This document shows positions 12,027 through 17,276 of a stretch of 64,000 nucleotides of DNA, one piece after another (the stretch's first letter is position 1; every line of letters starts with the position of its first letter). The DNA comes from Natranaerobius thermophilus JW/NM-WN-LF (GTDB lineage Bacteria; Bacillota; Natranaerobiia; Natranaerobiales; Natranaerobiaceae): assembly GCF_000020005.1 (NCBI RefSeq), contig NC_010718.1, positions 749,001-813,000 on the forward strand. The letters run 5' to 3'. A program made the position numbers and the translations under genes. The notes under the pieces were generated by a model. The model worked only from the letters and a program-made list of their open reading frames with translations, was not told the DNA's origin and did not search any database.

Positions 12027-12554
12027 TTAATTTAATGCTCTTAGCTTATACATTGGATGATCTTTAATGTCAATATATTCGTACTTTACAACACCACAAG
12101 CTAAGCGTCTTCCAGATTTACCTGTGGGATTCGTTCTGAAATCGTCGGGGCTTTCGTGAATAATAACTGCTTTGTCAATAATATCTTGTACATGAAAGCG
12201 GCTTGTAAAGAAGCATGTACGTGCAATTCCATTATGGGAGAATAGTACTGGGAAATCACCAGCGTGGTTTCCGTGAGGTTGGTTATCTGGATCCCAATGT
12301 CCCCCTGCTGCTTGAAAAGGATCTTCGGGATTGCCTTCCTTACAGGTACCAATTTCGTGAAGATGAAAACCGTGAGGCCCTATTGGAGGCTGATGAGATT
12401 CCCTCTGAAAAGATGGTAGCCCTTCTATATCGGCACAGATTACTGTACCATTTTTAACACTGTCAAAAGTGACGATTCCCTTGAGATCAGGTGCTAATGA
12501 GCCACCCTTTATCCGCGCCATAGCCACTTTGATAATATTTCGAGTATCATACAT
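12027..12554 (-). CDS. Cu/Zn superoxide dismutase family protein
   Basis: A 175-residue SodC-like protein that would convert superoxide to peroxide and oxygen. Expected metal and active-site motifs are present: HGFHLHEIGTC, GGHWDP, GNHAGDFP, IHESPDDF, and the arginine-containing tail GKSGRRLACGVV; the two cysteines can form the conserved disulfide. There is no signal peptide or lipobox; bacterial SodC proteins are normally exported, so a cytoplasmic location would be unusual. The ATG is preceded by GGGGGGAC. A terminator follows, so the gene is monocistronic. Whether copper is bound cannot be told. Confidence 0.92.
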   Translation of the reverse strand: MYDTRNIIKVAMARIKGGSLAPDLKGIVTFDSVKNGTVICADIEGLPSFQRESHQPPIGPHGFHLHEIGTCKEGNPEDPFQAAGGHWDPDNQPHGNHAGDFPVLFSHNGIARTCFFTSRFHVQDIIDKAVIIHESPDDFRTNPTGKSGRRLACGVVKYEYIDIKDHPMYKLRALN

Positions 12555-12770: not shown

Positions 12771-12950
12771 TTACTCATTGTCTTCATAATTACAATCTTC
12801 AGGATATCCTTCTTCCATTTCGGCATGATCACAACTTGTGCAAGTATAATATCGTTTCTTTTCACAAAGATCTATATTATCTTTAGGGCATTTGATGGCC
12901 AGAGTTGCGCCGCACTTTTTGCAAGTCTTTTTATCTGGTTCTCTTGTCAT
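12771..12950 (-). CDS. Small zinc-ribbon protein, function unknown
   Basis: A 59-residue protein with two Cys pairs (CKKC near residue 10 and CTSC near residue 37) plus lone cysteines in IKCPKD, DLCEKK and the acidic tail, consistent with one zinc ribbon or rubredoxin-like knuckle. A TTG at 12971 gives a longer ORF, but AGAAAGGGTG lies between it and the ATG at 12950, so the ATG is the start. It is monocistronic with its own terminator. The role is unknown; its neighbours SodC and MsrA hint at redox stress, but only by position. Confidence 0.8.
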   Translation of the reverse strand: MTREPDKKTCKKCGATLAIKCPKDNIDLCEKKRYYTCTSCDHAEMEEGYPEDCNYEDNE

Positions 12951-13060
12951 TGGTTTCACCCTTTCTTTCAATTATAAAATTATAAAATAATGTAATATTA
13001 TTGGTATATGTAGTATAACTTATGACAGTACTTTTTACAATGCAAATTTGCAATTAATAC

Positions 13061-13729
13061 TCATTTAACACCAGCTTTTAAATATTCCTGAGTTTTCTGG
13101 GATAGTCCGAATAAGGGGAACTCTCGTTCTAATTGTGTTAAAGTTCCAAAACCAGCCACATAACCGTTAATACGTGCAGTGGCTGTTGAATCAACAAATT
13201 CTTGAAAATCTTTATAGTAACCTCTCAATTCATTCATAAGTACCGGAGTGTTTTGTAAATAAAACTTTTGATGATAGTTTTCGGCTTGATAAAATTTAGT
13301 TACTGGATTGATCTCTGTATATATTTGTGTACCTAATTTAGTTTCTTGAGTTTTCCTAGATTTTTGTGCAATATATTTTTGATCTTCATTGTGATAAAAA
13401 ATTATAGACATATACTGACGGGTAGGTGCTTTCACTCTGGGATTGTGGCTCTTCCAAAAGATATCCAAAAGCTGTTCAAGAGTGATTTGTGATGGCACGT
13501 AATCTATTTCTATTGTTTCTGAATGATCCCCAAGATTATAATATGTAGGGTTTTCCTTTTCACCACCGGCATAACCGACTCTAGTACTTACTACTCCATC
13601 CAACTGCCCAAACTGGGCATCAGGTCCCCAGAATCATCCCATGGCAAAAGTAGCAGTGGTGATTTTTGCGGAATTCTTTTGATCTATCAAAGGTTTAGAT
13701 GTGTTGGAACTAATATCCGATTCATTCAA
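13061..13729 (-). CDS. msrA: Peptide methionine sulfoxide reductase MsrA, probable selenoprotein (UGA=Sec32)
   Basis: MsrA reduces methionine-S-sulfoxide in proteins. A conventional ORF begins only at 13603 and lacks the catalytic motif, but the frame continues upstream through one TGA (13634-13636) as ATFAMG-(TGA)-FWGPDAQF, exactly where MsrA has GCFWG. Upstream of it there are 31 more codons to a TTG at 13729, preceded by AAGGGGGG at good spacing. Downstream family motifs are intact: GYAGG, YYNLGDHSE, VKAPTRQYMS, NYHQKFYLQN. A hairpin 14 bases after the TGA fits a bacterial SECIS. The protein has no other cysteine, so it would be a 222-residue enzyme with a single selenocysteine and no resolving Cys. 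Alternatives: a nonsense mutation or read error. Confidence 0.87.
13605..13619 (-). promoter_or_regulatory. SECIS-like hairpin after the msrA UGA
   Basis: On the coding strand TGCCCA-GTT-TGGGCA forms a perfect 6-bp stem with a GUU loop, starting 14 bases after the UGA at 13634-13636. Bacterial SECIS elements are small hairpins within a few tens of bases 3' of the UGA, with G and U in the apical loop for SelB. The stem is coding, so its preservation is a double constraint. Confidence 0.72.
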
Positions 13730-13887
13730 ATTTATTCCCCCCTTTTTATTAAAGTTATTTCAAATATAGTTTGATACTTACCAAGAATGATTATTACAAA
13801 TTTAACGTTAATAGTTATTATAATTATATCATATTGAGTAAAATCATTATTTGTCGCATTTGTCAAACTAATTTTACATTTTAAAAC

Positions 13888-15784: not shown

Positions 15785-17253
15785 TGTTCTTTGAAAATGT
15801 CACCTAAAAACGCATAAATTTGTTCAGAGAAAATGTCACCCCCCAGGAAGGTAGACCGAGTTTTAAACTCGGTCCCTGGTATTTAGTATAGTATCTAAAA
15901 GTTCTTGATCAGTCAGGTCGTAGTTAAGATTTGTTCTTTCACTTTGTTTTCTCCAAGGGTGATTTTCATCTGGGACTATTCTATTTTTAGGTGATTGCGT
16001 TGTTTTAACTTTTTTGGTCATTTTAGTAGTTGAAGGCTTGTCCACAATTTGAGTTTCAAACACCATATCTTTATATTTTACTTTAACTCCAAATTTAGGA
16101 TTAGATAGGACAGTAACTTTAGATTTAGGAACCAGTTGACTATTTTTATCTAAAATTTGATAGTAACTTCCTTCAAAAGAGAAAGTGGCACTGTTGTCCA
16201 CAGTTCTTTTGAATTTAGAACAAAGTATATGATCAAGATTAATATCTTGATTTAAACAGGTAAAAGCCGATAGCTCATTTTCGGGCTTTAGGGCAAATCT
16301 TTTATTAAAATCAGGCAAGAAATCTTTTTGTAAAAATTCATTAGCTTTCTCCATGGTAGTTATATTGTGTAGCTTAAAAAGTGTGGGCAGTCTGCTTTGT
16401 AAAGTATCAAAAAGCCTTTCAACTCGTCCTTTTGCTTGTGGAGAGTTAGCAGGTATAATAGTGACTCCTAACTCTTCCATAGCTGCACCAAATTGAGTAG
16501 GCTTAACTTGTTTACCTGCGAGCTGTTCATCAATCGAAAGCTTGTCCGATTTAGGTGATCTAAAAATAGTGTGCTTATCGCTATAAAGACTTGCAGGAAT
16601 ACCATAGTTTGAAATTAACTGATGCATAATCTGAAAGTATCCCTCAAGACATTCATTTTCAACAAAAAATAATCCTAGCAAAGCTCCTGTGGCATCATCG
16701 ATAGCAGCGTGTAAATCACAATCAAAGCCAGTGTCAAACCAGTCATAAGGTGAGGCGTCTATTTGTACTAAAAGTCCCATTCTGTCCTTGCGTTTGCGTC
16801 TGTGGTGACTCTTACTCTTTTTATGTTTTTTAGGACTAGAAATTCCAGCTTTACTAAGAATTCTATGAACAACTGGCCTACTGATAGAGATTTTTTCTCG
16901 CTCGTTTAAAAGTTCTGTAAAATGAGTGAAATTTGCATTTGGGTATTTTTCTAACTTTAGAGAAATGATATGTTTTTCAGTACTTTCAGGAACAGAATGA
17001 TCAGGCTTTTTACCTCGGCTTTTATGTATGACAAAACTGGGTCCTTCTAGTTGCACTCCTTTCTTCAGTCGTTTAATTTGTCGATCACTGAGGTTCAAAG
17101 CTCGTGCTGCATCTCTAATGGTTAAGTAGCCATCAATTGTTTGATTGATAATATTTAGTTTTTTAATTTCTTCTTGGGTCATTTGATATGTCACCTTTTT
17201 AGTCATAGTGACATTTTCACAGAACATTCTAGGGGTGACAATATCACAGAACA
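15785..17253 (-). mobile_element. IS1202/ISNCY-type insertion sequence
   Basis: About 1469 bp containing one transposase. Terminal inverted repeats of 20 bp (15785-15804 and 17234-17253) match at 17 of 20. Each end has a second, inner copy of the GTGACATTTTC-type motif (about 15825-15836 and 17210-17228), likely transposase binding sites. About 29 bp next to each outer end are near-identical (roughly 24 of 29), consistent with the long target duplications known in the IS1202 group. Confidence 0.82.
15863..17182 (-). CDS. ISNCY (IS1202 group) DDE transposase
   Basis: A 439-residue transposase. The N-terminal helix-turn-helix is TIRDAARALNLSDRQIKRLKKG. The DDE core has D in VQIDASPYDWF, D in LYSDKHTIF and E in KGRVERLFDTLQSRL, the spacing of IS1202-like enzymes. 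The reading frame extends to 17254 but AAAGGTGA precedes the ATG at 17182, which is the best start. The gene appears intact. Its promoter region overlaps the right end of the element, so transposase binding may autoregulate it. Confidence 0.92.
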   Translation of the reverse strand: MTQEEIKKLNIINQTIDGYLTIRDAARALNLSDRQIKRLKKGVQLEGPSFVIHKSRGKKPDHSVPESTEKHIISLKLEKYPNANFTHFTELLNEREKISISRPVVHRILSKAGISSPKKHKKSKSHHRRKRKDRMGLLVQIDASPYDWFDTGFDCDLHAAIDDATGALLGLFFVENECLEGYFQIMHQLISNYGIPASLYSDKHTIFRSPKSDKLSIDEQLAGKQVKPTQFGAAMEELGVTIIPANSPQAKGRVERLFDTLQSRLPTLFKLHNITTMEKANEFLQKDFLPDFNKRFALKPENELSAFTCLNQDINLDHILCSKFKRTVDNSATFSFEGSYYQILDKNSQLVPKSKVTVLSNPKFGVKVKYKDMVFETQIVDKPSTTKMTKKVKTTQSPKNRIVPDENHPWRKQSERTNLNYDLTDQELLDTILNTRDRV

Positions 17254-17276
17254 ATTACAAAGGTTAAAAATCAAAA

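Follow-up and report, generated by a model that had tools for sequence, protein, structure and literature searches.

A probable selenocysteine-containing methionine sulfoxide reductase of the CoMsrA type in Natranaerobius thermophilus

Introduction

The MsrA family is an established selenoprotein family, listed in selenoproteome surveys with the motif GUFWG/H (PMC1794560; reviewed in PMC13188914), and a selenoprotein MsrA was already listed in Syntrophobacter in 2006 (PMC1794560). A selenoprotein MsrA of the same 1-Cys type as the one described here has been purified and crystallised from Clostridium (Alkaliphilus) oremlandii (PMC4333827). This selenoprotein, CoMsrA, is 209 residues long and has one selenocysteine (Sec), the catalytic residue, but no Cys. 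Activity is 20 times higher in the Sec form than in the Cys form and requires the C-terminal helical domain, and the enzyme is recycled by glutaredoxin, not by thioredoxin (PMC4333827).

Here, we describe an msrA gene with an internal UGA in Natranaerobius thermophilus JW/NM-WN-LF, located in a stretch of 64,000 nucleotides (the window; NC_010718.1, positions 749,001 to 813,000). An earlier note, made from the letters of the window, had proposed that this gene encodes a selenoprotein, and the present analysis follows up that proposal.

Results

The msrA gene occupies positions 13061–13729 of the window on the minus strand and comprises 222 codons with read-through, from a TTG start at 13729 to a TGA stop at 13063–13061. 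The sole interruption of this frame is a TGA at 13636–13634 (residue 32), which falls exactly at the catalytic Cys of the GCFWG motif. Read as Sec (U), it gives the translation ATFAMG-U-FWGPDAQFG. The TGA is in frame with the TTG at 13729, 31 codons upstream. A strong Shine–Dalgarno run (AAAAAGGGGGGAATAAAT) lies ahead of this start, with the Shine–Dalgarno-like run AAGGGGGG at 13737–13744 on the minus strand, and the other in-frame starts, TTG 13690 and ATG 13642, have no such run. There are no Cys codons in the frame, hence no resolving Cys. Both the choice of start and the lack of a resolving Cys had been proposed in the earlier note, and both hold. With up to two mismatches allowed, a coding pattern for GCFWGPDA had a single match in the window, whereas 100 shuffles gave none.

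With Cys substituted for U, the read-through protein exceeded the curated cut-offs of both MsrA family profiles, scoring 147.6 bits with Pfam PMSR (PF01625; cut-off 23.7, E 4e-43) and 131.8 bits with TIGR00401 (cut-off 108.1), and is assigned to the MsrA family on these scores. Its best solved relative is CoMsrA, aligned over residues 4–198, 195 residues without gaps (E 2e-63). The PDB entries 4LWJ, 4LWK, 4LWL, 4LWM, 4U66, 4W8C and 7C13 are named only MsrA, and we take them to be CoMsrA. With read-through, the PMSR and CoMsrA matches bear out the observation that family sequence flanks the UGA on both sides. A putative C-terminal helical domain of the CoMsrA type, residues 177–216 (13082–13201, minus strand), matched PF20939 with 19.9 bits, just below the cut-off of 23.7, and this region aligns with CoMsrA through residue 214.

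We considered the possibility that the UGA is a true stop and that the product is a shorter protein of 180 residues starting at TTG 13603. Mechanical ORF calling returns this very frame, as had been predicted, and the active site is lost from it. However, such a product would have neither the catalytic residue nor the N-terminal portion of the MsrA fold. Furthermore, the stretch before the UGA has its own strong ribosome site and is conserved as protein in a relative from the same family (IDQ-N--K---TATF--G). A truncated product is thus extremely improbable.

Homologues were compared in two sets. Among 78 loci from genome contigs, TGA was found only in Synergistaceae (L025) and Desulfobacula (L031), both of them MAGs. 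Among 399 genomes of the phylum, single-TGA relatives with the TGA at that column were found in one same-family genome and 14 others, a count from which a few weaker matches that contain in-frame stops, among them G354, G391 and G219, are left out. In all, 17 related loci carry TGA at the catalytic column (one from the same family, 14 from the same phylum, one from Synergistaceae and one from Desulfobacula), while the remaining relatives examined with the column aligned have Cys. The alignment suggested in the earlier note thus yielded a column that holds either Cys or TGA. In a tree of 39 rows, about five changes between Sec and Cys labels fall in a poorly resolved CoMsrA-like clade. The same-family relative (L103) is 57% identical to the window MsrA and has its TGA at the same column. 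In the 120 codons after the UGA, the two genes differ at 39, 23 and 65 sites in codon positions 1, 2 and 3, respectively, a pattern that indicates selection on the protein downstream of the UGA.

A lone stop in an otherwise intact frame resembles a fresh nonsense mutation, and a Cys codon (TGC or TGT) that had been mutated or misread to TGA would leave a pseudogene or an apparently broken gene. Conservation of the TGA at one column in 17 other loci, including the same-family relative and two loci in other phyla, argues against this, as does the codon-position pattern relative to L103. Since the TGA is conserved across such divergence, a recent nonsense mutation or base error is excluded, and we regard a broken or misread gene as very unlikely.

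In some genomes of the same phylum, an MsrB domain precedes the Sec-MsrA domain in a fusion protein. In L108, PF01641 matches at 40–155, PF01625 at 160–294 and PF20939 at 312–350, and L113, L116 and L120 appeared similar by eye.

A putative bacterial SECIS hairpin is located at 13605–13619 (minus strand), beginning 14 nt past the UGA, which confirms the position given in the earlier note. It reads UGCCCA-GUU-UGGGCA, with 13619–13614 paired to 13610–13605 and the loop at 13613–13611. The published bSECIS model specifies a loop of 3–9 nt, an upper stem of 4–16 bp, a G within the first two loop positions, a UGA-to-loop distance of 16–37 nt and an MFE of at most −7.5 kcal/mol (PMC13188914). The window hairpin falls within all of these limits, with a 3-nt GUU loop that starts with G, a 6-bp stem, a UGA-to-loop distance of 20 nt and a fold of −11.6 kcal/mol for the 39-nt stretch from the UGA. 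Its stability was not significant relative to dinucleotide shuffles (z −0.15 to −0.71), and an Rfam scan of the window gave no match. Support for the putative element comes from conservation across relatives, not from its own stability.

The 18 TGA sequences keep 3–6 of the six stem pairs (mean 5.1), compared to 0–3 (mean 1.6) in 21 Cys forms. Among the TGA sequences, 85% of the cells were paired, versus 78% after shuffling, and 10 cells had changed on both sides, versus 4.1. The observed values for paired cells, double changes and covariation score were reached by none of 500 shuffles and by no slid register, although these counts are not probabilities, because the 18 sequences are related. 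In five sequences, the loop-closing pair is changed from A-U to G-C by a change from CAG-TTT to CGG-TTC, which replaces Gln with Arg and is synonymous for Phe. One TGA relative (L120) has only three of the six pairs in this register. Part of the pairing is accounted for by the encoded sequence FWGPDAQFGQL (P about 0.03 under a synonymous null, computed for the window sequence only), and part of the contrast between Sec and Cys forms reflects the encoded residues, which are Q or R in the TGA forms and mostly others in the Cys forms. By this comparison, three phyla share the candidate SECIS hairpin of Sec-MsrA, which is maintained by compensatory changes, whereas the Cys forms do not keep it. 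Around the terminal TGA the fold is weaker (−7.2 kcal/mol, with a 7-nt loop), and nothing points to recoding of this second UGA.

The search for selA, selB, selC and selD that the earlier note had called for found all four in the N. thermophilus genome above curated cut-offs, at 614.5 bits for selA, 404.8 bits for selB, 398.2 bits for selD and 74.8 bits for the tRNA-Sec (selC), which has the anticodon TCA (UCA). Only one or two of 14 control genomes passed the cut-offs for SelA, SelB and SelD. The tRNA-Sec cut-off was passed by five of the 14, and the tRNA-Sec assignment therefore rests also on the ARAGORN anticodon call. The selD gene itself contains one in-frame TGA (SG-U-AAKLSPADL; locus L018, near 1533, G000:C2:1182697-1183626), placed as is typical of SelD selenoproteins, and is an independent selenoprotein candidate.

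Another suppressor might in principle read the msrA UGA, for example as Trp or Cys. The presence of the complete Sec machinery and of a SECIS-like hairpin that accompanies the TGA forms argues against such decoding, as does the fact that the same gene also terminates with UGA, and we consider it just as improbable as a true stop. Rather, the gene very probably makes a selenocysteine-containing MsrA via its internal UGA.

A Pfam profile search of the genome found no MsrA besides the window gene. For MsrB (PF01641), the whole genome gave no match at E ≤ 0.001, and the same search was positive in 10 of the 14 control genomes. One glutaredoxin was found above cut-off, in a 78-residue frame with CPAC.

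A Cu/Zn superoxide dismutase family gene (12027–12554, minus strand; PF00080, E 1e-28) is the second gene downstream of msrA and shares its strand. Between the two lies a frame for a small protein of about 60 residues with CxxC pairs (12771–12959, minus strand), which had no Pfam or NCBIfam match. At 15863–17254 (minus strand) is an ORF that resembles a transposase or integrase and matches a helix-turn-helix profile (PF13518). A conserved msrA neighbourhood was considered and rejected: the neighbours differ in L103, and we therefore make no claim of an operon.

Discussion

We are highly confident that the window gene encodes a Sec-containing peptide-methionine-(S)-sulfoxide reductase of the CoMsrA type that would acquire its Sec at UGA 13636–13634 through SelB and the hairpin, and would be recycled by an external thiol. 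In the proposed mechanism, the hairpin shortly after the UGA would hold SelB with Sec-tRNA-Sec, which would decode the UGA as selenocysteine. The selenol of MsrA would attack the sulfoxide, leading to release of methionine. Because MsrA has no resolving Cys, reduction of the resulting selenenic acid would fall to an external thiol. The likely recycling partner is the Cys glutaredoxin encoded elsewhere in the genome. The sequence shows the gene, the place of its UGA, the Sec machinery and the hairpin, whereas Sec insertion, MsrA activity and recycling by glutaredoxin are what we infer.

Peptidyl methionine sulfoxide repair would then rest on one Sec-MsrA, with neither a Cys MsrA nor an MsrB as backup. 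We see about an even chance that this repair is selenium-obligate, a reading that covers the MsrA and MsrB Pfam profiles and leaves out free-methionine and molybdenum-type sulfoxide reductases. If no other reductase substitutes, protein methionine sulfoxide repair would be selenium-dependent in this anaerobic halophilic alkalithermophile. The gene is also a well-supported addition to the selenoproteins, one whose active site is lost when ordinary ORF calling shortens it.

The window MsrA shares its family profile (TIGR00401, PF01625) with the Cys MsrA proteins, but differs from them in the predicted replacement of the catalytic Cys by Sec and in having no resolving Cys. Natranaerobius is not named in the review cited above (PMC13188914). 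Like CoMsrA (PMC4333827, PMC4479559), the window MsrA has its predicted Sec at GUFWG and no Cys elsewhere, corresponding to the 1-Cys type. It also has a putative C-terminal helical region of the CoMsrA kind, which scores just below the PF20939 cut-off; the lengths are similar, with 209 residues for CoMsrA and 222 for the window MsrA. The predicted window protein differs from CoMsrA in its diverged sequence, in about 16 extra N-terminal residues and in its host, an alkalithermophilic halophile. CoMsrA is nevertheless the closest characterised protein by sequence, and the window gene adds a further predicted member to a known, structurally characterised enzyme type.
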